A DNA stretch of 64,000 bases from Lentilactobacillus raoultii (GTDB lineage: Bacteria; Bacillota; Bacilli; Lactobacillales; Lactobacillaceae): the NCBI RefSeq assembly GCF_900411375.1, contig NZ_LS422986.1, forward strand, positions 62,001-126,000. Direction: 5' to 3'. The notes under the pieces were generated by a model. That model was not told the origin of the DNA. It worked only from the letters and a program-made list of their open reading frames with translations, and did not search any database. Of the stretch, positions 4,396 to 39,105 are shown one piece after another (positions within the stretch are counted from its first letter, which is position 1; every line of letters begins with the position of its first letter). The translations under genes and the position numbers were made by a program.

Positions 4396-4794
4396 ATGGT
4401 ACAGGAATTGGGGACGACAGATCTCGGCACGTATGAATACGTTTCACGCGTTTACAATGAAAATATGCGACTTAAGGATTACCAATTGCCCGTAACTGCT
4501 AAGGATGGCGAGATCACTTTCTTCGATACCGATGAAATCAACCTCACCATGCTCATCAAAAACCAACGGGTCCAAAAAATAACGATTGTCACGCCTACTC
4601 CTCAATCTTCAACCTATATGCAGGTCTTTGAAGGCTTTGAGTTTGGGTTGGATGCTTTGGGGACTTGGATTAACACCTACCACCGTTCGACATCGACCCA
4701 CGGACCGGCGTCAGACGTGGTTAACGGGATTTTAGCCAGTTATAATACCACTCAGGATAACGTGTTAACAGTTGGTTTGACACGCGCTCAATAA
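4396..4794 (+). CDS. Conserved hypothetical protein, intact copy of a duplicated gene
   Basis: 132 residues, start ATG 4396 after AAAGGGGG. I do not recognise a domain. It is soluble, with no signal peptide, Cys or membrane segment. From residue 15 onward it is nearly identical to the product read from 9996-10382, and the DNA similarity continues through the stop codon and the terminator. This copy has its own promoter region and 5' end and is taken as the intact original. Confidence 0.7.
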   Translation: MVQELGTTDLGTYEYVSRVYNENMRLKDYQLPVTAKDGEITFFDTDEINLTMLIKNQRVQKITIVTPTPQSSTYMQVFEGFEFGLDALGTWINTYHRSTSTHGPASDVVNGILASYNTTQDNVLTVGLTRAQ

Positions 4795-4846
4795 TTGAAC
4801 TTCAGTCTAAAAACCAGGCATTCAAAATAAATGCCTGATTTTTTAA
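4439..4846 (+). repeat. Direct repeat DR-A, left copy (about 410 bp)
   Basis: This block matches 10026-10433 base for base apart from about twenty scattered substitutions. It covers codons 15 to stop of the 4396 gene plus its terminator. Similarity stops sharply on both sides. Between the copies lie the IS982-like remnant and the peptide/ABC/protease operon. Confidence 0.9.
4814..4846 (+). terminator. Rho-independent terminator after 4396 gene
   Basis: CCAGGCATT, a 7-base loop and AATGCCTG(G) pairing partner are followed by ATTTTTT. The same hairpin occurs after the second copy at 10402-10434. Confidence 0.85.
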
Positions 4847-4915
4847 TTAATAATACCAAGTTGAATGATAGGCTGCTATTTTTTCTTAACAACTACGCTA
4901 CACTAACATACTATA

Positions 4916-5986
4916 TAACGTGTTGTGTTAGTTGTGTAATTTTTGTAAAAAATTGACTAAACTGAGGCGTTACGTAACCAAAAAACCCGCATTTGCGGCA
5001 ACTTCTATGGTGACTAAACCAAAGAAAGAAGGAACCCCACATGCGGGACTGCCCTCAATTGTCTTAAAAATCAATCCAGTTCAAGCCAATTACAAGAATT
5101 TATTGAAATCATTAATCCTATTTATCAGAAATTGGATCCTGCGATTCGCTTACGCCGCAATCACCAGCACTTGATTGCTTCAGACGTCGTTATTATGGCC
5201 ACGATGTTGATGCGGTTTGAACAGCGCGACTGCTCAGAAAATCGTTTCTATCATGAGCTGGTGGCTTGGGGATTACGCTTACCGGAACGGTCGCGTTACC
5301 ATCGGCGTTGTAAGGCGCTAACTCAGGTTTTAAAGCTGATTCGCGCTATTTTACTACGCCGCTGGCAGACCGCCACGCCTTATGAAATCATTGACAGTGC
5401 GCCAATTGTCTTAGCTTCGGAACGCCGTAGTTCACAAGCCAAGGTAATGAGAGGTCTGGCCCATAAAGGCTTTAATGCGACCAAGGGCCATTACTTTTAT
5501 GGTTCTGAAACTACACGCAGTGATGGATGCCCAAGGCTATTTCCGCGCTTGGGAAGTTACCGCCGCCAACGTGGACGATCGGCGCGTGGCCGAAGAACTC
5601 TTGTTAGCGGCACCACATCGGTTTGTCTTGGCCGATGGCGGGGCTACCTAGGTCAACCTTTAAACGATCGTTTAGCCGCCACTTATGGGATCTATCTGTG
5701 GACACCTAAGCGCAAGAATATGAAGATAAATCCCAAAATTAACGTCGCCTAGTGTAAAAATCATCGGCGTCGGATTAAAACCGGCTTTGATAATGTAAAC
5801 ACGGCTGGTCATTTTGAACATCCGAGGATTCGGTCGTTTGAGGGACTAGATAGTCAGCTGTCGGTCATGTTTCTATGGCATACGATCAAGGTTCGCCAAC
5901 AGCTGGAAGCAGGTTGCAGCGGACTTAAAATTATTGACTACTAAAAACTCAAATGTTACAAATATTTTATCTAGCACAACACGTTA
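4916..5986 (+). mobile_element. Decayed IS982-family-like insertion sequence
   Basis: Terminal inverted repeats TAACGTGTTGTGTTAG (4916-4931) and CTAGCACAACACGTTA (5971-5986) match at 15 of 16 positions and enclose a broken transposase. The total of about 1.07 kb is normal for IS982 relatives. I see no clear target-site duplication. The element lies 70 bases after the 4396 gene, inside the duplicated bracket, and is probably immobile because its transposase is frameshifted and interrupted by a stop. Confidence 0.75.
5070..5944 (+). pseudogene. IS982-like transposase, frameshifted
   Basis: Pieces of one IS982-type transposase are readable in order: a start region ending IRLRRNHQHLIAS, the conserved ERSRYHRRCKAL segment, the first catalytic Asp in IIDSAPIVLA, the GFNATKGHYFYG block, then in another frame DAQGYFRAWEVTAANVDD, then back in the first frame LWTPKRKNMK. 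An indel near 5503 breaks the frame, another near 5640 restores it, and an in-frame TAG at 5750 stops translation before the C-terminal part, which ends at 5944. A normal member is about 290 residues. No functional product is expected. Confidence 0.8.
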
Positions 5987-6339
5987 CATAATTCTAATGT
6001 GGTTTAATTTATAAATATTCACCTATTTGGCATGATTTTTTTATTTATATTTCACTATATATACTAAGATCTTTTGAAAAACCTTTCGAATCTAAAAACT
6101 CGATCACTTAACTATAATTGTTTATTCTTTATTCCATTTAAAAACGTGTATATATCGAATTTATGTATAAAATTGTGAACTAGTCATTAAAGTATCGTTA
6201 CATTTTAATATTACAATCACAAAAAAATAATAATTTTTAACGAGTGTAATTCCTTTATGTAGATGAAATTTTATGTTATTTTTAGAGCGTAAAATGAATA
6301 TAAATAATTTTTACGTTTTGCATAGAAAGGATGTTAACC
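5987..6339. promoter_or_regulatory. AT-rich leader of the peptide/ABC operon
   Basis: No gene is visible in these 353 bases. Base composition is much more AT-rich than the hem and cys regions. An imperfect inverted repeat lies at 6288-6315 (CGTAAAATGAAT and ATAATTTTTACG), about 25 bases before the peptide start, and is a candidate operator or mRNA stem. I do not see a convincing consensus promoter. Confidence 0.4.
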
Positions 6340-6552
6340 ATGGGAGCAATTATTTATTATCAATCATTATTAGAATCGAAGTATCACAATGTTGTGAAAA
6401 ATAAATGGATCATTTGGCTTATTATTTTAATCGCACTTCTTGGTTCGATTGGGTACGCCTTTTACTGCGCTAGTAAAGGTTACAACTTCAGCGGTCAAGT
6501 ACGTTGGCATGTTCCGAAGATAACTGATATTTCTATCGGCTGCACAAAGTAA
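6340..6552 (+). CDS. Short membrane-anchored precursor peptide, candidate bacteriocin or pheromone
   Basis: 70 residues from ATG 6340, eight bases after AGAAAGGA (an in-frame ATG at 6331 overlaps the ribosome site). About 20 N-terminal residues precede one hydrophobic helix (about 23-42), then comes a polar 28-residue tail with Cys43 and Cys68 near its two ends, ending SIGCTK. I do not recognise a named bacteriocin. The context is suggestive: the next genes encode an ABC ATPase, its permease, a small membrane protein, an M50-like intramembrane protease and a PedC-like thioredoxin protein that could form a Cys43-Cys68 disulfide. A leaky terminator separates it from the transporter genes, as is common for structural peptide genes. 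Function is inferred from context only. Confidence 0.6.
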   Translation: MGAIIYYQSLLESKYHNVVKNKWIIWLIILIALLGSIGYAFYCASKGYNFSGQVRWHVPKITDISIGCTK

Positions 6553-6568
6553 TCCTTGTTACTTTAAA

Positions 6569-6594
6569 AGACCTATTCCATATAGGCCTTTTTT
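6569..6594 (+). terminator. Weak intra-operon terminator / attenuator
   Basis: CCTAT and ATAGG arms with a 5-base loop are followed by a run of six T, directly before the GGAGGAG ribosome site of the ABC ATPase. The short stem suggests partial termination, giving more peptide mRNA than transporter mRNA. Confidence 0.55.
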
Positions 6595-6604
6595 GGAGGA
6601 GAAT

Positions 6605-7321
6605 ATGTTTACAATCAACCATTTAAAAAAGTCCTTTGATCACAATGATGTATTAAAAGATATTAGTGCATCTTTTCCTAAAAATAATATATCTATTATT
6701 GTCGGTGCAAATGGAAGTGGCAAAACTACGTTGATGAATATTATTAGTGGTTTAGTTGTTGCCGATAATGGAAATATTGATCTTGACGATATCCCATATA
6801 ATAGCCAACATTATAGTGAAAATTTGTTTTACGTACCATCTGATTTCTATTTACCAGGATTCCTTTCTGGGAGAGAATATGTAAACTTTGTCTTAAGTCG
6901 TTATCCCCATCCTAATTATGACCTTCTTCCATACTTGTTTTCTCTTTTTGACTTAACCGATAGTCAAAATAAATTATTAGAGGGTTACTCCTTCGGAATG
7001 AAAAAGAAAGTACAGCTTATAGCAGCCCTTACAGTTGGCTCTAAATATTTATTTGCTGATGAAATTTTTAGCGGATTAGATTTTGAAACCGTATTGCTAG
7101 CTGAAGAACTTTTTTTAAAACTTCGTGAAAGTACAGGAATAGTAATTGTTTCTCATGAAATGAACACTTTGGAAAAATTCCCCCAAAATATATGGCTTAT
7201 GAAAAGTGGCTTATTAGTTCCATATAACGGTGATGTTCGTTCCCTTCCTGATGCAATAAAGTCAACCGGAAAGTTAGGTGAAAAAATTGCTAGTATTAAA
7301 AGACATTTCCCAATTGCTTAA
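6605..7321 (+). CDS. ABC transporter ATP-binding protein of the peptide operon
   Basis: 238 residues from ATG 6605, seven bases after GGAGGAG; an upstream in-frame TTG at 6593 overlaps the terminator T-run and is less likely. Walker A is GANGSGKTT (about 34-42), the signature motif is the divergent YSFGMKKK (about 129-136), and Walker B is LFADEIFSGLD. This is a single ATPase half of the YydI/BcrA type, working with the following permease. Its stop overlaps the permease gene by 44 bases. It probably powers export of, or protection against, the 70-aa peptide. AT-rich coding unlike the hem region suggests transfer. Confidence 0.85.
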   Translation: MFTINHLKKSFDHNDVLKDISASFPKNNISIIVGANGSGKTTLMNIISGLVVADNGNIDLDDIPYNSQHYSENLFYVPSDFYLPGFLSGREYVNFVLSRYPHPNYDLLPYLFSLFDLTDSQNKLLEGYSFGMKKKVQLIAALTVGSKYLFADEIFSGLDFETVLLAEELFLKLRESTGIVIVSHEMNTLEKFPQNIWLMKSGLLVPYNGDVRSLPDAIKSTGKLGEKIASIKRHFPIA

Positions 7322-8660
7322 ATTTCTTTATCAGGATGCATTTTATGGTCTATTCAATCATCCTTTTTTCAAAAGAAAAATTAATGTAATTATCTTGATA
7401 TCGATCTTAGGTGCTTTATACCTGTCTTACTTCTATGTCAACATGAGACAGCTAGCAATTTTATCTAATTTTTCTAACGCAACTCCTGCTGAAATCGCTG
7501 TTGCATCTAAGATAACATTAATAAGCTTTTACGATGTAACCATCGTCTTATCTGTAGTAATATTCATGGTTATTAATTCTACAGGAGGACTAAGTAAAAA
7601 TTCAATATACTTTGTAGCCACCTTACCTTTTAAAAGGAAAGAGGTACTCATTAGTTATAAAATTTTTAAACTTTCAATTGGAGCTACTTTATTTAGTATT
7701 CTCATCATTATTGTCACACCTGCCTTAAAACTAGTCACATCATCTTATATGATTGCCTTGACAATTCTGCTGTCTTTATACCTTGTTTTTGGAGCAATTT
7801 TTTTAATCATCAACAACTTGTATTCATTTATCAAGGTAAATATTTTCCACAATAATCGTCTTGGGATCTTAATCCTAAATCTGTGCATCCTATTAATCAC
7901 TATTTTTTACTTTTTAGTTGGAAGGTATAAAGTTGAATATTTTATTGGAAATTCAATCGCTACTAAACCTCTTATTGTTATAACCAGCGTTTTATCTTCA
8001 ATAATTCTATGGGTTGTCGGCTTCATCTCAATGAACAGGCTAGATATTCACACTCTTTTTACAATTAAGAAAGATTTTCTAGGCTTTCCTGTTAAGCCTC
8101 TCAAAGCCAGCACGCTCACTATGCCTATATTTGCCACTTTTAGGAACAAAAAATTTCTTTATTTCTCACTGATATTTGTACTTTTGGTTGCGTTAACAGT
8201 TATTTTCCAGAATAAACAAAATGAATTACAATTGTTAATCTATATGTCTCCATTGTTTGGTGTTCCACTCATGTCATACGCAGATGCTACCCTTGATTTT
8301 AGAAAAATGATCACATCTTTTAACGTTAAATCTATTAACGAACTCCAAGGCATTGTTTTAATAACTTTTATTATTTCAATCCCTAGTTTAATTATTGGAC
8401 TTGCTTCCAATCAAAAGTTAATTTTGTTTTTTTTGACCATAAATATTGCACTATCCGGGATTATAATCGGATTTCTCTTTCCAAAATCTCAAGGTAATAT
8501 TAATGATACCGTTTCATCAGTATTGCTAATTATTGTTATCATTTTGTTATTGCTTTCGTTAAATATCCAATGGGCATTATTTCCCATTTGCTGTTTTCTA
8601 ATTATTTGCTTATACATTATATTAAAAAAGGAAACGGGGCCGCTATATGAACTACGCTAA
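7278..8660 (+). CDS. ABC transporter permease of the peptide operon
   Basis: 460 residues from GTG 7278, inside the end of the ATPase gene. Roughly ten to twelve hydrophobic segments are visible, with a positively charged N-terminus and no extracellular domain. The sequence is too diverged for me to name a family; it fits the large permeases of peptide or lantibiotic-immunity exporters paired with a separate ATPase. It overlaps the next gene by 14 bases, so the cluster is tightly coupled. The exact start is uncertain, since TTG codons shortly downstream are also possible. Confidence 0.75.
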   Translation: MKKLLVLKDISQLLKFLYQDAFYGLFNHPFFKRKINVIILISILGALYLSYFYVNMRQLAILSNFSNATPAEIAVASKITLISFYDVTIVLSVVIFMVINSTGGLSKNSIYFVATLPFKRKEVLISYKIFKLSIGATLFSILIIIVTPALKLVTSSYMIALTILLSLYLVFGAIFLIINNLYSFIKVNIFHNNRLGILILNLCILLITIFYFLVGRYKVEYFIGNSIATKPLIVITSVLSSIILWVVGFISMNRLDIHTLFTIKKDFLGFPVKPLKASTLTMPIFATFRNKKFLYFSLIFVLLVALTVIFQNKQNELQLLIYMSPLFGVPLMSYADATLDFRKMITSFNVKSINELQGIVLITFIISIPSLIIGLASNQKLILFFLTINIALSGIIIGFLFPKSQGNINDTVSSVLLIIVIILLLLSLNIQWALFPICCFLIICLYIILKKETGPLYELR

Positions 8661-8910
8661 ACATCTCGGCTATGCATCGACCGTTTGGTTCGCTCTTCTA
8701 GTCGGAGATACACTGTATGAATTATTTCAAATCAACTCATCTGAGAGTGTGCATACTCTTTTAGGTTTAAAACTTACAGTTTTAATGACAAAGCATTCAC
8801 TTACAACACATTTTATGCTGAATTGGCGTGTCGCGATAATCTATATTCTTTTTGTCTCCATTTGGTTCATTGGATATTTCTTTTATAATCTAAAGAAAAG
8901 CAAAAAATAA
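8647..8910 (+). CDS. Small membrane protein of the peptide operon
   Basis: 87 residues from ATG 8647, overlapping the permease end by 14 bases. Two hydrophobic segments are seen (about 10-27 and 62-80), with a Lys-rich C-terminus ending KKSKK. I do not recognise the family. Its position between the permease and the protease suggests an accessory or immunity protein for the peptide. Confidence 0.65.
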   Translation: MNYAKHLGYASTVWFALLVGDTLYELFQINSSESVHTLLGLKLTVLMTKHSLTTHFMLNWRVAIIYILFVSIWFIGYFFYNLKKSKK

Positions 8911-8914
8911 GAGA

Positions 8915-9301
8915 TTGGAATTGATTATCTTGAATATTAATTTAGCTTTATTATTCCTTTTTTCTTTGTGTACGTCATTGTTAACTGTTGCCATTCATGA
9001 ATTCACACACTGGATTTTTGCCAAAGCTCTTGGTCTAAATCCCAAATTTCAATTTTCACATTTTCTTACACCAGAGGTAGTCTATATCAACAAACATGAC
9101 AATCTTAAAAACTTGATAGTATCTGTTTCAGCTCCAATTGTCCTTATCTTAATAGGGATTCTTACTCACTCAAATTCTATATACTTCCTTACTTTTAGGT
9201 TTCTTTGCTTTTTCAACGTATTTAATCTCTCACCCATAACTGCGGATGGCGAAGTTGCATTACTGTCAATTCTAAACATGCTAAGGAAAGGAACATCTTA
9301 A
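8915..9301 (+). CDS. M50/S2P-like membrane zinc metalloprotease
   Basis: 128 residues. The zinc-binding motif HEFTH (HExxH) sits inside a hydrophobic segment at about residues 28-32, and a second motif NLSPITADGE near residues 104-113 fits the NxxPxxxDG motif of site-2-protease-like enzymes. Three to four hydrophobic segments are seen. It is short for M50 but resembles the compact YydH-type proteases that process peptides. The start is uncertain: TTG 8915 has a weak ribosome site, and TTG 8921 or 8930 are alternatives. It may cleave the 70-aa precursor within its membrane helix and release the Cys-containing tail. Confidence 0.7.
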   Translation: MELIILNINLALLFLFSLCTSLLTVAIHEFTHWIFAKALGLNPKFQFSHFLTPEVVYINKHDNLKNLIVSVSAPIVLILIGILTHSNSIYFLTFRFLCFFNVFNLSPITADGEVALLSILNMLRKGTS

Positions 9302-9302
9302 A

Positions 9303-9818
9303 ATGAAAAAAATATTATTAACTATGCTGTCATTGTTTATCATTGCTGGAGCTGCTATTTATTTTTATACTAGCAAGTCGGATACCTCCTCAGCACAGTA
9401 CAATGACAAAACGGAACAGTTTATTCATAAGAGTCCAGTCACTACTTTGCAAACGCTAAGCAATAAAAAACAAGGAATATACTACTTTGGTTTTCCAACT
9501 TGTCCATGGTGTTTAGAACTGCTGCCTGTCTTCAATAAAGCATTAAAAGAACATCATTTAAAGTCATATGTGACCAACACGCGGGCTGATAATTATACTA
9601 GCCAAGATAACATTAAATTAGAACGCATCTTTTTAAAATATCGAAAAGAAAAGAGACTATCAGTTCCATTTATTATTGAAATAACAAAAAGTGGTAAGGT
9701 GGAAACACACGTAGGAACCGTTCCCGGACATGATGCAGAAGTTCAGAAAATGACTACCCAACAGGAGAATAAGTTAAAAAGCCAGTTAAACGCAATGCTA
9801 GCCGATTTTAGTAATTAA
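9303..9818 (+). CDS. Thioredoxin-like extracytoplasmic protein (PedC/BrcD type)
   Basis: 171 residues from ATG 9303, right after the protease stop. An N-terminal hydrophobic anchor (about 4-23) is followed by a thioredoxin-like domain with the redox motif FPTCPWCLELLP (CxxC at about 64-67) and a cis-proline-like SVPFII near residue 120. Proteins of this kind accompany disulfide-containing bacteriocins as accessory oxidoreductases acting outside the membrane. The upstream peptide has exactly two Cys, so disulfide formation or repair in it is a reasonable role. It is the last gene of the operon; a strong terminator follows at 9896. Confidence 0.8.
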   Translation: MKKILLTMLSLFIIAGAAIYFYTSKSDTSSAQYNDKTEQFIHKSPVTTLQTLSNKKQGIYYFGFPTCPWCLELLPVFNKALKEHHLKSYVTNTRADNYTSQDNIKLERIFLKYRKEKRLSVPFIIEITKSGKVETHVGTVPGHDAEVQKMTTQQENKLKSQLNAMLADFSN

Positions 9819-9888
9819 ACTTTTTAACTTTCTTTCGACAAATGAATAGACATCTTGCTGCTTACCAACAAACCTTGCTTTCTTAAAT

Positions 9889-10025
9889 CTAATCGAAAAA
9901 GCTTCAAGGCCTGAAGCTTTTTTATTTTTCCCTAAAAGAAATCACTTTATAATTTACCAAACCATTCAATAGCTAGATATAGACTCTTAACTAATTTGAT
10001 TGTGAATCCTCTCAAAACATTCTTC
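9889..10025 (+). repeat. Repeat R, copy 1 (about 137 bp)
   Basis: This stretch aligns with 12289-12429 at roughly 80 percent. It holds a hairpin followed by a conserved tail containing CCATTCAATAGCTAGA and AGACTCTTAACTAAT. Copy 1 abuts the right copy of direct repeat DR-A exactly at about 10026, so the junction of the island passes through it. Confidence 0.75.
9896..9930 (+). terminator. Strong terminator of the peptide operon
   Basis: AAAAAGCTTCA and TGAAGCTTTTTT form an 11-bp stem over a 6-base loop, followed by TTTATTTTT. It lies 77 bases after the thioredoxin-like gene and within repeat R. Confidence 0.85.
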
Positions 10026-10382
10026 TACGTTTCGCACGTTTATAATGAAAATATGCGACTTAAGGATTACCAATTGCCCGTAACTGCTAAGGATGGCGAG
10101 ATTACTTTCTTCGATACCGATGAAATCAACCTCACCATGCTCATCAAAAACCAACGGGTACAAAAAATAACGATTATCACGTCTATTCCTCAATCTTCAA
10201 CCTATATGCAAGTCTTTGAGGGGTTTGAGTTTGGATTGGATGCTTTGGGGACCTGGATTAATACCTACCACCGTTCGACATCGACTCATGGGCCGGCGTC
10301 AGACGTGGTTAACGGGATTTTAGCCAGTTATAATACCACTCAGGATAACGTGTTAACAGTTAGCTTGACACGTGCTCAATAA
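9996..10382 (+). pseudogene. 5'-truncated copy of the 4396 gene
   Basis: Codons 15 to stop of the 132-aa gene are preserved with a handful of amino-acid changes, but the first 14 codons and the promoter are replaced by repeat R. The only in-frame start is TTG 9996 inside R, without a convincing ribosome site, giving a different N-terminus (MIVNPLKTFF). The open frame and mostly silent or conservative changes show the truncation is not old, or that both copies were under selection in different genomes before being joined. Expression is doubtful. Confidence 0.7.
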
Positions 10383-10433
10383 TTGAATTTCAGTATAAAA
10401 AACCAGGCATTCAAAATAGATGCCTGATTTTTT
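10026..10433 (+). repeat. Direct repeat DR-A, right copy
   Basis: Right-hand partner of 4439-4846, in the same orientation, ending with the same terminator hairpin. Confidence 0.9.
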
Positions 10434-10434
10434 A
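10402..10434 (+). terminator. Duplicated terminator
   Basis: CCAGGCAT and ATGCCTG arms followed by ATTTTTTATTT; a copy of the hairpin at 4814. Confidence 0.8.
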
Positions 10435-10553
10435 TTTGGCTGACAATTACCGATAAGTAGTCTAGTTCATTAAGTACTGTAACAGCATTTAAAGAGAGTC
10501 CCATTTCTACCCATGTTGCCTACGATATGATTCGGCCTGCCTTAACTGCCAAC

Positions 10554-10718
10554 TTATCCAAGTACAAATGTCACGAGCAAAATAAATATGGTTTTTGATA
10601 TTTTCGATAATGTTAATCCATCCGATATAATCGTTGACAGTTCGCTTAGAATCAAAATGACTGCACCAACGGTCAAAAGCAATATTCCCGAAACTACAAG
10701 AGTACCCATAAATTTCAT
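10554..10718 (-). CDS. 54-aa small membrane protein
   Basis: ATG 10718 follows a good GGAGG site eight bases upstream, and the frame is open for 54 codons. The product has two hydrophobic segments (about 5-25 and 41-54) separated by a polar stretch, and ends in LLVTFVLG. I do not recognise it. The size and shape fit small membrane peptides, toxins or leaderless peptides of lactobacilli, but no neighbour supports a specific role. A real gene is likely because of the ribosome site; function is unknown. Confidence 0.5.
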   Translation of the reverse strand: MKFMGTLVVSGILLLTVGAVILILSELSTIISDGLTLSKISKTIFILLVTFVLG

Positions 10719-11084
10719 AGACTTATAACCTCCAAACGAATAGAGCTTGCATGTGATTTAGATACCACAAAAGTTATCACAAAGCGGGATTTTTTGATTG
10801 TCATATCTTCAATTTAGATAATTTTATAATTTTATAATCTAAAGAAAAACCGATTATCTTAGCTATTAAAATAATGGCTGTCGTTTCACTAAATAATTCA
10901 TCCTTAGCCGGTTGAGATGTAAAAGGAAAATTATCCAGCAATGGTAACTATAGCTGATTCAATTCAGTCCCAACGCGATATTTGCCCATGAATCATTGAA
11001 AACACATTTCAAAGCAGGGTAACGAATTGGAAGCATTAATCATTTAGGATATAGGATATCTTGAAATTCAAATTATTTAAAGCA
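10719..11084. other. Gene-free, degraded intergenic DNA
   Basis: I see no gene in these 366 bases. The stretch 10826-10862 (TTTTATAATCTAAAGAAAA, then GATTATCTT) resembles 8881-8932, the junction between the 87-aa and protease genes of the peptide operon, so this looks like debris of a related cluster. Confidence 0.5.
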
Positions 11085-11423
11085 TCATCCTTCTCTAGGC
11101 ATTAATCCCCAGCCCATTATTCTATCTACAAAAATATGAATTAGCCAAATTACAGAAAAAGCCAACATTTTATTATTTGCAATATTCAAACCAGCCACTA
11201 AATATAAAGAAATTAAAATTAATGGAAAGATCAATGTATGCCCTAAATTATAAAGTAGATTTCCAACCTTTTCAGAAAATAAGTAGCCTAATCCGCCAAC
11301 ATCAAATACAAGAAATGTAACTATAAAAAGCAAATAGCTACCTTTGATTTTATAATATAATATGAAAAGCATTATAATAATCGCGACGTATTCCGCTTTA
11401 TAAATATAACGTTTCAAAAACAT
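11085..11423 (-). CDS. DUF4260 family membrane protein
   Basis: 112 residues with four hydrophobic segments. Family markers are the central YNLGHTLIFP and the C-terminal HIFVDRIMGWGL, where a His and an Asp/Arg pair sit at the end of a membrane helix. The function of DUF4260 is unknown. It follows a TetR regulator gene on the same strand by 74 bases, a pairing that suggests the TetR protein controls it from the palindrome at 12122. Confidence 0.75.
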   Translation of the reverse strand: MFLKRYIYKAEYVAIIIMLFILYYKIKGSYLLFIVTFLVFDVGGLGYLFSEKVGNLLYNLGHTLIFPLILISLYLVAGLNIANNKMLAFSVIWLIHIFVDRIMGWGLMPREG

Positions 11424-11497
11424 TCTACCTCATTTCCCTTCCCGACTTTCTTTTGTGAAATCTAGCCATGATTAATTTGATTTTTACGTATATTCCA

Positions 11498-12115
11498 CTA
11501 ATTTGAATCTCTTCGAAATTTGTCTTTTAAAAAAGTGTAATTAAAATAATCATCCACGATTTTCTTAAGCCTAGGGATCAACTCTTCACTTGGTTCCTTT
11601 GAACTAATGTATGTCATAACTGTTCCATGCAAAAAGTAAAATACTCCTCTAACTAAGTTAACTCTCAATTCACCATCTAAATTATCTGAAATAATCTTTT
11701 TTAACACTTCTTCTAGCAGATTTAAAGACTTCATGCGCATTTTACTTGTATCGTTTTTATAGCTCTTTTCATCAATCCTTTCTCCATCGTAAGTGGCTAA
11801 AAGTGGATAGAACTGTCGTTGAGCAATTCCAAATGCCACGTAATACTCACACATTAATAAAAACTTATCTTTATTAGATTTATCCGATTCATAAATCTCT
11901 TCAAATTTTAAATATAATTTTTTTAAAGGTTTTTCCGCAATCAAATTAAATAACTCTTGCTTATTGCCAAAATACAAATAAATAGTCGTATGAGAATAGC
12001 CGGCTTCCTTTGCAATATCACGGATAGATGTTCCATCAACTCCTTTATTCTCAAATAGTTTTCTTGCTGCTTCAATTATCTTTGCTCTTGCAGTTTGTAT
12101 TTTAATCTCTTCCAT
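11498..12115 (-). CDS. TetR/AcrR family transcriptional regulator
   Basis: 205 residues. The N-terminal helix-turn-helix is clear (TSIRDIAKEAGYSHTTIYLYFGNKQELF, given here in part: IAKEAGYSHTTIYLYF, about residues 30-45), followed by an all-helical ligand domain. It very likely represses its own operon, which includes the DUF4260 gene, by binding the near-perfect 31-bp palindrome that begins seven bases upstream of the start codon. The ligand is unknown. The start ATG has only a weak, close-lying AGGAA. AT-rich coding marks it as part of the accessory island. Confidence 0.9.
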   Translation of the reverse strand: MEEIKIQTARAKIIEAARKLFENKGVDGTSIRDIAKEAGYSHTTIYLYFGNKQELFNLIAEKPLKKLYLKFEEIYESDKSNKDKFLLMCEYYVAFGIAQRQFYPLLATYDGERIDEKSYKNDTSKMRMKSLNLLEEVLKKIISDNLDGELRVNLVRGVFYFLHGTVMTYISSKEPSEELIPRLKKIVDDYFNYTFLKDKFRRDSN

Positions 12116-12528: not shown

Positions 12529-13248
12529 CTAACTCCTGACAATTCCAGCCTCATCCCAACACATTTTCAAAATCATTTGGGCTAACACGTTCGTGGCTTG
12601 ATCCGGTTCTTTAACTGGTCGATGGTCCCGCCGGATTAATTGAGCAGTTTGCGCTCCCAGTGTGTAGTACGTTGGAGCAACAAAATTTGTCGGCAACTGG
12701 AACTCGATCTTTTTTAACCTGCGATAACTGGAAGGGCTGGTTACCAAGATCCGGTTAATTTGTTTAGCAACTAACAATTGACGGGCGCTTTCCTGTGCAG
12801 CCTCGTTCCAAGTATTCTCGTAAACTTTTACCCGTTGAACCGATTTTGGCAGTGACCGCGAGCCAGCCTTTAAATTACCGCTTAAAGCCACGATTCGATT
12901 CGTCGATGCCTGTAATATCGAGACCAGACTTCGCTGATTTTCTGCCAGCGAAACGGTGACATTGGTCATACCCGCTGCCTTTAGTCGCGTCGCCATTTTT
13001 TGACTAAGTACCAGCAAGCCTGCCGTGGCATTCAGCCGCCGCAGGTTTTTTAAGTAAACGGTAAGGGCAAATTGACTGGTAATCAAAAAAGAATCGGCCT
13101 GCCGGATTAACCAACGATCGTATTCAGTCAGTGCTATGGCACGCAACTGCCTTAGCGGACAATAGATTGGCGTTGTCACCTGATTGAGACGAGCTCTTAA
13201 AGCCGGCTCAATTTTTTCTTTGGGATAGGTTATTAAGAACTGAATCAT
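12529..13248 (-). CDS. hemD: Uroporphyrinogen-III synthase (stand-alone)
   Basis: 239 residues from ATG 13248, eight bases after GGGGAAG; an upstream TTG would add seven residues. HemD proteins are poorly conserved. Supporting features are length, two lobes, the ILVTSPSSYRRL segment in the C-terminal lobe (about residues 176-187), and position as last gene of the siroheme operon behind hemL. It would convert hydroxymethylbilane to uroporphyrinogen III by ring closure with inversion of ring D. The cobA gene at the operon head also carries a HemD-like C-terminal half, so this function is present twice. Confidence 0.8.
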   Translation of the reverse strand: MIQFLITYPKEKIEPALRARLNQVTTPIYCPLRQLRAIALTEYDRWLIRQADSFLITSQFALTVYLKNLRRLNATAGLLVLSQKMATRLKAAGMTNVTVSLAENQRSLVSILQASTNRIVALSGNLKAGSRSLPKSVQRVKVYENTWNEAAQESARQLLVAKQINRILVTSPSSYRRLKKIEFQLPTNFVAPTYYTLGAQTAQLIRRDHRPVKEPDQATNVLAQMILKMCWDEAGIVRS

Positions 13249-35472: not shown

Positions 35473-36341
35473 TAGCGATCTTTCCCCCTGCTTTCATTTG
35501 CCATCATAGTTAATACCGAGTCTTCAAGATTTTCTTGGAAATGGCCAACGTCTTCAATTTTAATTTTGTTAGATAGCAGGTCATTAAACAATTGATTCAA
35601 GTTGCTGCTTTGCGATAAGGGAACCTGGACGCCATTTTGACTTTTAGTAGCGCTGATTTTATCCTTAATCAAAGTTCTTGTGCATCGAGTATCATCATCA
35701 GTTTTTAGAAAGAGATAGTTTGCACCAATCGCATGCAAATGCTTCATGGAAGTTGCTAGAATGACTTGCCCCTTATCCAAAAGAACCACTTGGTCAATCA
35801 TCTTTTCAAGTTCACTTAAAATATGACTGGAAATCAAAAAACTAATTCCTTTTTCCGCCAATCTCATAATTAGATCCCTTAATTCTCGATTAGACATTGG
35901 GTCAAGGCCATTCATCGGTTCATCTAAAATAACGACATCCGGATGATTAAGAAGGGCGCTTGCAATCCCCATTTTTTGCTTCATTCCTAGGGAATAGTGG
36001 ACTACCCGCTTATCAATATACTTAGTCATCGCCATTTCTTTAACAATTACATTAACGTTGGCTGCATTTTGGTGTGAATAAAGCATTAGTTGTTGGCGGC
36101 CCGTTAAAAATGGATAAATCGCTGGACTTTCGATTAAGGCCCCAACAGTTCCTTTTGAAGAAACTGTCCCGGAGTCTGCTTTATAAATTCCCAGAATTAT
36201 TTTCATAATTGTTGATTTTCCAACTCCGTTTGGCCCGATTAACCCAACAATGGCGCCTTTTGGAATATCAAAACTGACGCTTTTTAAAACCTGCCTCTTA
36301 CCAAAACGTTTGGATACATCCCTGACGCTTAAAATATTCAC
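35472..36341 (-). CDS. ABC transporter ATP-binding protein, BcrA-like
   Basis: 289 residues from GTG 36341, nine bases after GAGGAGG; a longer frame to 36383 lacks a ribosome site. Walker A GPNGVGKST (about 36-44), signature YSLGMKQKMGIA, Walker B VVILDEPMNGLDP, H-loop SSHILSELE. The C-terminal 80 residues are the variable domain of immunity-type ATPases. Partner of the preceding permease. A long AT-rich control region lies upstream. Confidence 0.9.
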   Translation of the reverse strand: MNILSVRDVSKRFGKRQVLKSVSFDIPKGAIVGLIGPNGVGKSTIMKIILGIYKADSGTVSSKGTVGALIESPAIYPFLTGRQQLMLYSHQNAANVNVIVKEMAMTKYIDKRVVHYSLGMKQKMGIASALLNHPDVVILDEPMNGLDPMSNRELRDLIMRLAEKGISFLISSHILSELEKMIDQVVLLDKGQVILATSMKHLHAIGANYLFLKTDDDTRCTRTLIKDKISATKSQNGVQVPLSQSSNLNQLFNDLLSNKIKIEDVGHFQENLEDSVLTMMANESRGKDR

Positions 36342-36941
36342 GTGAATTGCCTCCTCAAAAATTAATGACATAGGTTCAATCACAACCTGTCGTGAAACAT
36401 AATATGGAAAAGATCTCTAGTGATCACACATCTACAAGGGATGTTTTTCCATAAATAGGGTTAATGGTTGCTTTATCCTTTTCATGAGGTGTTTATTTTA
36501 CCTACAATCAATAATATACACTTCATTGTTATTAAATAAAGTACTTAAACATTATGTAATTACTTAATATAATACTTTGCTACATTTTAAAAAACACAAC
36601 AAATGCCCTTAAGTCAAGATAATAAAGAGTATTTTAAAATAATATCATATAACTATAATATTATGCGTTATTTTTACGGTTATTTCTTTATTTTTCCTAC
36701 TATGTAAGAATATAATAACTGTAATTAAGATTGAGTGCTCTATATAATAACTTTTTTAATTATCATTAAATTAAAAGTAAAGAAATAGATAATTTCCGAT
36801 TTGTAGATACGGTGTCTTTGCTAGACTTCTATTCTAAAATGTAGTAATTTTCAGAATGAAAGCGTTTCATATATATAAATCATTCATGTTTTGCGTATTT
36901 TTTTAAGTTTCTAAAGCCTTTTAAGGAAGAAGATTTTTATT
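36342..36941. promoter_or_regulatory. 600-base AT-rich gene-free region
   Basis: No gene is seen. An inverted repeat TATGGAAAA ... TTTTTCCATA spans 36402-36454, close to the ABC gene start on the minus strand. 36540-36840 is extremely AT-rich. A palindromic ATGAAAGCGTTTCAT lies at 36856-36870, 70 bases before the lipoprotein gene. Confidence 0.5.
36856..36870. promoter_or_regulatory. cre-like / LacI-family operator palindrome
   Basis: ATGAAA-GCG-TTTCAT resembles catabolite responsive elements (core AAAGCG), but the right half is one base closer than in the classic 14-base cre, so CcpA binding is uncertain. Confidence 0.4.
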
Positions 36942-37379
36942 ATGAAATTAAAGATCGCAAAGGTTTTCCTATTAATAACACTTGCTTCAATAACTCTTGT
37001 TGGGTGTGGCACATCACAATCTTCCACTTCAAATAAGCCACACAACAACTGGACTGATGTTTATAATCGCTCTGGCAAAAAAGTCGCAACTTTTTCTAAG
37101 CAAAAATGGATAAACTATTTCTCTGATTTTCCCGGAAGCGGACACGGTAACGTTAAAAAATCTAGTCTTCCTGCTGGCTCAAAGCTCAAATTCAAATATG
37201 TTCTTCACCAGCGAACAAAAAATGAAAAAGCAATATTAAAGGTCTATTCCAACAAGTATGCCTCTCTAAGCGCGCATTCACATCAGGGGGTTGCTGATCA
37301 AGATATTCCTAATCTTATCTGGAAATTAAGCAACCAAACGTATAACAAAGTTACAAATCCAAAAGCTTTTACAAAATAA
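36942..37379 (+). CDS. Small lipoprotein of unknown function
   Basis: 145 residues, ATG 36942 after AAGGAAGAAG. The signal peptide ends in the lipobox LVGC (Cys22), so the mature protein is membrane-attached by lipid. The mature part is basic, with no other Cys, and has a Ser/Asn/Thr-rich linker followed by a compact domain (KFKYVLHQR, KVYSNKYASLS). I do not recognise a family. AT-rich coding and upstream region suggest recent acquisition. Confidence 0.75.
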   Translation: MKLKIAKVFLLITLASITLVGCGTSQSSTSNKPHNNWTDVYNRSGKKVATFSKQKWINYFSDFPGSGHGNVKKSSLPAGSKLKFKYVLHQRTKNEKAILKVYSNKYASLSAHSHQGVADQDIPNLIWKLSNQTYNKVTNPKAFTK

Positions 37380-37457
37380 TTGTTTAAAAATACACAATAT
37401 TTCAAATTATATTTAAAAACATGCTTTAGCTTGACTGTTTATTTAATAAAATGCAAC

Positions 37458-37496
37458 AAAAGCTCTGCCATCCAACAAAGGACGTAGGGCGTTTTT
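37458..37496 (+). terminator. Possible terminator after the lipoprotein gene
   Basis: AAAAGCTCTGCC and GGACGTAGGGCGTTTTT form an imperfect stem with G-U pairs and a T-run. Confidence 0.4.
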
Positions 37497-37662
37497 ATCT
37501 ATACTCTTTGGATAATTAGTAACTCAGCCATCAGTATGCATAAGTTGGTATATCAATGTTAAAATAATCAAAAGTAACAAAATAAAAAAATAAAAATTTC
37601 CTGCATGTTTTAAAAAAATAAGTAATTTGTCCATATAATATCAATTCAAGGAAGAAACACTC

Positions 37663-38296
37663 ATGACTCATCTAACAAGAAAAGCTTTTCAAGAAACCTA
37701 TTTCTACAAAACCGAATTAATCAAGCTCTGCCGCCAGTATGGCCTACCGACTCAGGAAACCAAAGCTGAATTGACTCACTATATCGATCAATTCTTAACT
37801 GGCACTCCTGCCAATAAAGTAGCCGCTGTTCGTACTCACTCCTCAAAACCGACCCTTAAGGCTAATCAAATCAGCTTGGATACTCCCGTGGTTGGTGCCG
37901 GCTTCTCATTTAACCAAGAGGCTCGAAAATTTTTAAAGGTTTACTTTGGTGTTGAAAAGTTCTCATTCACAAAAGAAATGGCCATTATTAAACGACGGGC
38001 TGAAGCAACTCATGATTTAACATTAACTGTAGGCGAACTGTTGGCACAAGCCGAAAGTTTAAGGGCTCATCCATCTTCAATTCTCGCCCATAATCCAGAA
38101 GAACAGACCTAGTCAATGGAACCGGTTCGTTAAAGATTTTTGTTGCAGTCCTCAAAGTCGGGCCTTTGCTAAAAAACTGAAGGTAGCTGCACTTCTTTGG
38201 CAGCATGTGAAACGTTCAAAGGGCCCTAAACAATACCGAGATCAATTGCTGAACCAATTTGCAGATGAGCTTAAGCCATATCGGAAACGACATTAA
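37663..38296 (+). pseudogene. SAP/HeH-domain DNA-binding-like protein, frameshifted
   Basis: The first frame (37663-38112) gives 149 residues with an N-terminal SAP-like helix pair (TELIKLCRQYGLPTQETKAEL, key part LCRQYGLPTQETKAEL). It hits TAG just after EEQT. A one-base shift continues with QWNRFVKDFCCSPQSRAFAKKL and ends KPYRKRH at 38296, clearly the missing C-terminus. A single-base indel near 38106 therefore splits a gene of about 210 codons. Function of the family is unknown to me. It may also be a sequencing error, as everything else is intact. Confidence 0.7.
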
Positions 38297-38304
38297 TCAT
38301 TCAA

Positions 38305-39105
38305 CTAACGTTTGTTAGTCATTAATTTTTCAATCCAGTCATTTCGTTGATCCAACTTTGTATTTCTTAAATCGTACGCCGTAATTATCAATAGTCCCAC
38401 GTCAAAGATTAGTGACAAAGTAACTGAATCAGGTACCAGAAATGCGCCATTTAAACCAATCACGATGAAGTCCCATAAGCTGTGAAAAATAATTGGCAGC
38501 CATAACGAACCTGATCGAATATAGATAGCACAAAATAAACATCCAATCGAAAGCGCCCCAAGCATTTGGATCAAGGTCGCCGACAAACTTTGTTCCGTTA
38601 AGTTCAAAACATGAATACACGCAAATAGCAGGCTGGGGATTAAAACGGCTAAATAAAGATCTTGATGGGTCCAAGTCCCAAGTGCTTTAAGAACTTGCGG
38701 AAAAATTAGTCCTCTAAACAGATATTCTTCAGCAATACCGATTAAAGTAGTTCCCGCTAAAATATCCAGAAGCATTGACCACCCACTAAAAGAATGACGA
38801 GAAAGCAGGATTATCGTTGCCCCAATCGCCAACAGTATCAGAAAAATTGGTAATGAAAGATAAATTAGATTTTTCAACGGACCCAAGAGTCGATAAAAAA
38901 CCGGTTGTTTAACGTAAAACCTGTTTAACATGAAAATGATCACCAATACTGGTAGTTCTTGAATCCCAATCAGCCAAAACCAGTCAATTGATCGACCGCT
39001 GGGGATTAATGGACGGACTAAAAACGGCAATCCAATAATAATTAAACCAGTGATGCCGATCATGATTGCAACGTTAATCCAATTTTGTTTTTTCACGGTT
39101 TTCAC
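38305..39105 (-). CDS. CPBP-family intramembrane metalloprotease
   Basis: 266 residues with about eight membrane segments. Motif 1 EEYLFRG (EExxxR, about 148-154), motif 2 FACIHVLNL and motif 3 HSLWDFIV contain the Glu and His residues of the CPBP (Abi) active site. Such proteins cleave membrane substrates; in lactobacilli many act in bacteriocin maturation or self-protection. No peptide gene is adjacent, so the role is open. It converges on the frameshifted 37663 gene with only eight bases between. Confidence 0.88.
   Translation of the reverse strand: MKTVKKQNWINVAIMIGITGLIIIGLPFLVRPLIPSGRSIDWFWLIGIQELPVLVIIFMLNRFYVKQPVFYRLLGPLKNLIYLSLPIFLILLAIGATIILLSRHSFSGWSMLLDILAGTTLIGIAEEYLFRGLIFPQVLKALGTWTHQDLYLAVLIPSLLFACIHVLNLTEQSLSATLIQMLGALSIGCLFCAIYIRSGSLWLPIIFHSLWDFIVIGLNGAFLVPDSVTLSLIFDVGLLIITAYDLRNTKLDQRNDWIEKLMTNKR

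Follow-up and report, generated by a model that had tools for sequence, protein, structure and literature searches.

How does the six-gene operon at positions 6340–9818 of the window, the 64,000-nucleotide (nt) stretch of a Lentilactobacillus raoultii contig analysed here, mature the small membrane peptide encoded by its first gene? A first-pass annotation had proposed a peptide-maturation operon with a new logic of its own, in which a membrane protease cuts the precursor helix. The six genes are intact and lie on the same strand, their open reading frames (ORFs) were confirmed at the annotated positions, and the peptide recurs in other genomes with the same neighbours. The maturation logic is not new, as the core of the operon is the published TMcin core cluster (PMC12328743, PMC13252029). 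By analogy with that class, its product is very probably a TMcin, a pore-forming antibacterial peptide with a retained membrane helix.

TMcins are a bacteriocin class published in 2025 (Nat Commun, PMC12328743), with a core of tmcA, tmcB/tmcC, tmcE and tmcP (PMC13252029). According to the main texts of these papers, TMcin-G1905 of Staphylococcus aureus is a 5.8-kDa peptide whose transmembrane helix is retained after leader removal; the 28 residues following the helix are pinned by a C25–C50 disulfide, and its oligomers are large pores (PMC12328743). TmcP, a DUF3267 protein, cleaves the leader, TmcE escorts the peptide, TmcBC exports it, and in staphylococci the DsbA-like TmcD forms the disulfide (PMC12328743, PMC13252029).

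The 70-residue precursor in the window shares this geometry. A single hydrophobic segment (residues 23–41) precedes Cys43, Cys68 and K70, as the first-pass annotation had largely described. Like TMcin-G1905, the peptide is a transmembrane precursor with a Cys pair 25 positions apart and 28 residues from the first Cys to the end, the tail carrying C43, C68 and K70 here and C25, C50 and R52 there (PMC12328743, PMC13252029). With the first Cys as the common reference point, V19 would be the first residue of the mature peptide, giving a calculated oxidised mass of 5885.0, compared with 5.8 kDa for TMcin-G1905. An ATP-binding cassette (ABC) pair, a two-helix protein with a three-stranded sheet (TmcE) and a DUF3267 protease are also common to both. 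In contrast, the peptide gene comes first here, whereas the G1905 core runs from tmcB to tmcA; the putative leader is about 18 residues long rather than 45; and a PedC/BrcD-like CPWC protein is encoded within the operon, where G1905 has a separate unit for a DsbA-like CPHC protein.

Conservation of the peptide bears on where it is cut. Both cysteines are present in 24 of 25 aligned peptides, spaced by 25 in 21 and by 22 in 3, and the remaining one has a single Cys. Mean conservation over the 25 peptides is 0.36 for residues 1–18, 0.59 for residues 19–42 and 0.68 for residues 43–70, and is thus higher in the helix and loop than in the first 18 residues, as expected if the helix belongs to the product. 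An intramembrane-type HExxH protease, a helix adjoining the loop and two conserved cysteines would suit the cut within the helix first proposed, which would free a soluble disulfide-looped peptide of 28–30 residues. However, TMcin-G1905, with the same Cys geometry, keeps its helix in the secreted peptide (PMC12328743), and residues 19–42 are better conserved than residues 1–18. Such a cut is therefore very unlikely, and the idea of a released 28-residue loop, probably wrong, is to be dropped unless mass spectrometry shows otherwise.

The protease and the TmcE-like protein agree with the assignment to the TMcins. The M50-like membrane protease of the first-pass annotation proved to be of the DUF3267 family, which is matched by 7/7 family members (the window protein at 25.9 bits, just below the cut-off of 27.1); HExxH is present in all seven members and P[IV]TxDG[EQ] in six, the remaining one being truncated. 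The AlphaFold2 model of the TmcE-like protein (mean predicted local distance difference test score 85.8) contains a helix at residues 3–28, strands at 33–36, 41–47 and 52–58, and a second helix at 60–86. The ATPase has Walker A at residue 34 and the Walker B Glu at 153. No match to the permease was found in Pfam and NCBIfam scans, and a simple hydropathy scan gives it 11 hydrophobic segments, compared with 12 published helices for TmcC. Gene overlaps had been annotated along the operon; they hold for ATPase and permease (44 nt) and for permease and 87-residue protein (14 nt), but 52 nt separate the peptide and ATPase genes, and small gaps occur at the last two junctions, 4 nt before tmcP and 1 nt between tmcP and the CPWC gene.

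Table 1 Features of the operon and its surroundings, in window coordinates
Feature	Position	Strand	Remarks
tmcA-like precursor, 70 aa	6340..6552	+	Residues 1–18 putative leader, transmembrane helix, 28-residue tail with Cys43 and Cys68
tmcB-like ABC ATPase, 238 aa	6605..7321	+	PF00005, 66 bits (cut-off 25)
tmcC-like permease, 460 aa	7278..8660	+	Homologue at 35/35 loci (fragment in L064)
tmcE-like escort protein, 87 aa	8647..8910	+	Homologue at 35/35 loci; AlphaFold2 model
tmcP-like DUF3267/S2P-type protease, 128 aa	8915..9301	+	TTG start, uncertain; HEFTH and PITADGE
Anchored thioredoxin-like CPWC protein, 171 aa	9303..9818	+	PedC_BrcD 23.3 bits; proposed disulfide enzyme of this TMcin branch
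Terminator-like stem	9895..9923	+	12 pairs, then T-run; 3′ of the CPWC gene
Left copy of duplicated sequence	4438..4848	+	End of a 132-aa gene and beyond
Right, partial copy of duplicated sequence	10026..10437	+	94% over 300 nt; copies flank the cassette
Insertion-sequence-like element	4912..5990		20-nt inverted ends, 90% complementary; DDE_Tnp_1_3 frame 5132–5752; 350 nt upstream of tmcA

To follow the core beyond the window, 397 Lactobacillaceae genomes, including the strain's own, were searched with the 70-residue peptide, and matches at E 1e-3 to 0.1 were left out. The peptide occurs in eight other genomes (E 9e-18 to 3e-11), the next matches starting at E 1.3e-3; the 23 congeners within this search gave no peptide match below E 7e-3. 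A profile of the nine peptides then matched 25 loci in wider genome contigs, five of which repeat genomes from the first search. The 25 loci include Halobacillus, Ornithinibacillus, Gracilibacillus, Bacillus, Exiguobacterium, Streptococcus and Kandleria, together with Staphylococcus cornubiensis and one metagenome-assembled genome (MAG) of the Actinomycetaceae. Order-level (395 genomes) and class-level (398 genomes) searches added G425 and G516, and G913, G1031, G1055 and G963, respectively, four further class-level matches repeating Exiguobacterium genomes. The total is 35 loci (9 + 20 + 2 + 4) in 34 genomes, from Bacillota and the one Actinomycetaceae MAG. At all 35, the peptide is followed in constant order by the ATPase, the permease, a protein of about 90 residues and the HExxH protein. 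The first-pass annotation had held that its reading would fail if the 70-residue frame were not conserved beside this cassette; the frame is conserved at 35/35 loci.

Individual copies are damaged, with tmcP affected in G121, L037 and L057, tmcB and tmcP in L048, and tmcB and tmcC in L064; the L065 peptide frame stops before the second Cys. In G168 the operon lies on two contigs, the second starting within tmcC, and was counted as carrying the CPWC gene. A match in L088 (E 7e-5) lies within a 369-residue frame and was rejected as a peptide locus. Plasmid sequences gave no match for the cassette DNA, the peptides or the L065 permease, and viral contigs gave none for the CPWC protein or the peptide profile. 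Kandleria vitulina DSM 20405 has two different TMcin-like operons (L056:5980-6207, L059:5980-6207), each with a thioredoxin-like gene, and its peptides have one or two extra cysteines ahead of the usual pair.

Three divergent TMcin-like loci (L085:5684-9515, L086:2365-6121, L087:6127-9597; peptides at E 2e-9 to 1e-7 to the profile) have the order peptide (AAYC..KGG..F..GC), ABC ATPase, permease of 510–530 residues, PqqD–HExxH fusion and small membrane protein. The PqqD domain (PF05402) scores over the cut-off in all three fusion proteins, and neither 'PqqD' nor 'recognition element' occurs in the main text of either TMcin paper (PMC12328743, PMC13252029).

Upstream of the peptide, Rgg_C or RNPP_C regulators over the Pfam cut-off are encoded at three related loci (L032:6852-7694, L063:4609-5475, L084:6125-6991), which suggests peptide-pheromone control there. 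L033 has a weaker helix–turn–helix match at this place, and the window has none. The peptide might then itself be a pheromone or other signal, the ABC proteins serving other ends such as self-protection; Rgg/RNPP-type regulators at those three loci would fit this, as would the best NCBIfam match of the window ATPase, a lantibiotic-protection subunit scoring far under the cut-off. No such regulator is found among the scanned flanking ORFs, where a TetR-type gene lies at 11498–12115 on the other strand, and the core gene set is the one shown to yield a bacteriocin (PMC13252029); a signalling role is accordingly a slender prospect. A defence-system reading was dropped, as PADLOC matched the ATPase only (among the best 25 of 34 matches).

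The layout also invites comparison with YydF. The YydF epipeptide operon comprises a small peptide, a membrane metalloprotease and an ABC exporter and needs a radical S-adenosylmethionine (SAM) enzyme; to our knowledge, it has neither a Cys pair nor a TmcE-like protein. Peptide, metalloprotease and ABC exporter are shared with the window operon, but no radical SAM match was found among the six operon and eight flanking proteins, and instead the precursor is transmembrane and has a Cys pair, and a TmcE-like protein is encoded. We consider a YydF-type system here practically out of the question. Pfam scans of the same 14 proteins likewise gave no lanthionine or C39 family, as the first-pass annotation had stated.

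Several observations weigh against assigning the operon to the TMcins. The AlphaFold2 model of the peptide has a confidence of only 63.7, although in it the helix is interrupted at residues 20–21 and strands form at 49–51 and 67–69; in the alignment of 25, two tryptophans of the family consensus are missing from the window peptide. The hydropathy scan finds one segment in TmcE and two in TmcP, for which two and four helices are published. The staphylococcal-type gene order was not found in 84 Staphylococcus genomes, and kinship to TmcA-G1905 rests on geometry and neighbours rather than on sequence alignment.

The sixth gene distinguishes this operon from the staphylococcal cluster. Its product has one N-terminal hydrophobic segment and the motif C67-P-W-C70; C-x-W-C is conserved in the family, and V121–P122 is an invariant Val-Pro. 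PedC_BrcD (TIGR01295) is matched by 7/7 family members at E <= 0.01, the window protein scoring 23.3 bits against a cut-off of 120, so that the PedC likeness noted at first stands as a distant one. No DsbA-type Pfam match was obtained, the only hit being Thioredoxin_9 (18.8 bits, cut-off 25); PF13462 (DsbA-like) is absent from the whole genome G000, and PDB sequences gave no match for the CPWC profile. Like the class IIa accessory proteins PedC and BrcD, the product is an anchored thioredoxin-like CxxC protein in a probable bacteriocin operon; unlike them, it falls far below the family cut-off and would have a TMcin, not a class IIa bacteriocin, as its partner. It differs from TmcD in having no DsbA-family domain match. 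PedC raises pediocin potency, and the authors of that work speculate that it acts in disulfide formation (PMC4919988). The CPWC protein could close the peptide disulfide.

Within the Lactobacillaceae, the tie between this gene and the cassette is strong. The CPWC profile matched ten of 397 genomes at E <= 1e-8, eight of them at E <= 4e-63. These close relatives occur in 8/9 peptide-bearing genomes and in 0/388 others (Fisher p 6e-16, taking the genomes of the peptide and CPWC searches, which agree in number and handles, as one set). The ninth peptide genome, G121, has no CPWC gene and a truncated tmcP. Weaker relatives among the 388 peptide-free genomes, in G222 (1.5e-13) and G166 (5.8e-10), adjoin small class IIa-like genes with YGNG, a motif that we take to mark class IIa bacteriocins. 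In these next CPWC relatives of the family, class IIa-like peptide genes stand beside PedC-like proteins (L114:3927-4782, L115:3410-4602).

The CPWC protein might instead be a passenger or act on another substrate, the TMcin disulfide forming without it. TMcin clusters of Bacillaceae and Exiguobacterium lack the CPWC gene, and in S. aureus TMcin is exported even when reduced (PMC13252029). The gene nevertheless directly follows tmcP as the last before the terminator, is confined among the 397 Lactobacillaceae genomes to peptide-bearing ones in its close form, and has relatives next to class IIa-like genes, so a passenger role seems unlikely, if less so than the alternatives above. We favour the CPWC gene as a second type of TMcin disulfide module. 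According to the preprint, tmcD is not found beyond the staphylococci, and distant oxidoreductases are suggested to take its place (PMC13252029); 'thioredoxin' occurs in the main text of neither TMcin paper, and 'PedC' is not in that of the preprint (PMC12328743, PMC13252029). The module, not mentioned in the text of either paper, looks new.

Further oxidoreductase-like frames lie at related loci. G425, where BdbC is also present, has a divergent gene beside the peptide for a CSFC thioredoxin-like protein (L083:5425-5886; E 2.5e-9 to A2), which may represent a third route by which an oxidoreductase was added. Directly after tmcP in G963, a frame with CSHCTMC (L089:3420-3722) could be what is left of a thioredoxin-like gene. 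In L057 and L059 the CPWC frames seem incomplete, and the L047 contig stops shortly after tmcP, leaving absence of the CPWC gene unproved there.

We then compared the CPWC gene with the host disulfide machinery. The search for PF02600 (DsbB/BdbC) covered 38 handles, equal to 34 distinct genomes once identical match places were merged. It is found in 0/14 genomes with the CPWC gene in the operon and in 17/20 without (Fisher p 1e-6, with relatives that are not independent). PF13462 points in the same direction less sharply (1/14 versus 12/20; Fisher 0.003). A tree of the permeases covers 31 of the 35 loci, leaving out L043 and L092 as well as G168 and L064, which have no long permease frame; in it, 14 loci have the CPWC gene only, 15 BdbC only, two neither and none both; the window is among the long branches. 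Speaking against this exchange, G121, L064 and L065 have neither CPWC gene nor BdbC, G425, one of the 17, has BdbC besides its divergently encoded CxxC protein, and the BdbC link rests on two to three independent contrasts, for which a sign test cannot reach 0.05. Because the relatives are not independent and the contrasts so few, the tie to missing BdbC is only suggestive. On balance, we find it somewhat probable that a disulfide enzyme was recruited at least twice, as the DsbA-like TmcD in staphylococci and as the in-operon CPWC protein in Lactobacillaceae, Streptococcus, Kandleria and others, where it would be kept in the absence of host BdbC/DsbB, with the loci L085, L086 and L087 forming a further branch with a PqqD-fused protease.

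Taken together, we propose that this Lactobacillaceae strain acquired the cluster and that TmcA lies in the membrane and exposes its loop on the outer side. There, outside the cell, the CPWC protein would make or correct the C43–C68 disulfide, in the role of staphylococcal TmcD. As taken from TMcin-G1905, TmcP, aided by TmcE, would remove the leader of about 18 residues ahead of the helix, TmcBC would pull the helix-containing peptide of about 52 residues from the membrane and release it, and the released peptide would assemble pores in the membranes of competing Gram-positive bacteria. We hold this proposal as a whole to be highly likely; what the analysis itself shows is gene content and order, conservation, the motifs of the protease, the predicted fold of TmcE and how closely the CPWC gene co-occurs.

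In 2-kb bins of the window, G+C is 30–33% at 6000–12000 and 42–49% at 0–6000 and 12000–34000, with one further low bin (33%) at 36000–38000. The duplicated sequence flanking the cassette has a single match in 18 of the 23 congeners and none in five. Two of the three congeners examined have homologues of window 37663–39105 after the gene at this sequence, which puts the cassette at one border of a variable region of about 33 kb. Positions 12529–34577 of the window encode tetrapyrrole genes (a HemD match, CobA over the cut-off, a HemA-like protein under it) and a sulfate-assimilation-like set (AprA-like, CysD and CysN over the cut-off, a sulfite/nitrite-reductase-like protein under it); at the corresponding place, two congeners lack this stretch. 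Four terminator-like sites were found in 5900–10100, compared with a shuffle mean of 1.4. A hairpin between tmcA and tmcB was not significant (21/200 shuffles fold at least as well), and a promoter scan gave 25 sites versus 21.3 in shuffles. The peptide also resembles Wzz in Pfam (22.4 bits, cut-off 25.5), a match dismissed as a helix pattern.

As a bacteriocin class, the pore-forming TMcins are young, and their maturation has been worked out in one staphylococcus. How the disulfide required for activity arises in other producers is left open in the main text of the preprint (PMC13252029), and this operon, a known kind with a second type of disulfide module, offers with its relatives a testable answer. 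Lactobacilli are thereby pointed to as likely TMcin producers, and the thioredoxin gene is a marker for finding more. If two recruitments and a PqqD-fused branch hold true, TMcins would represent a single branch within a wider group of membrane-made peptides.

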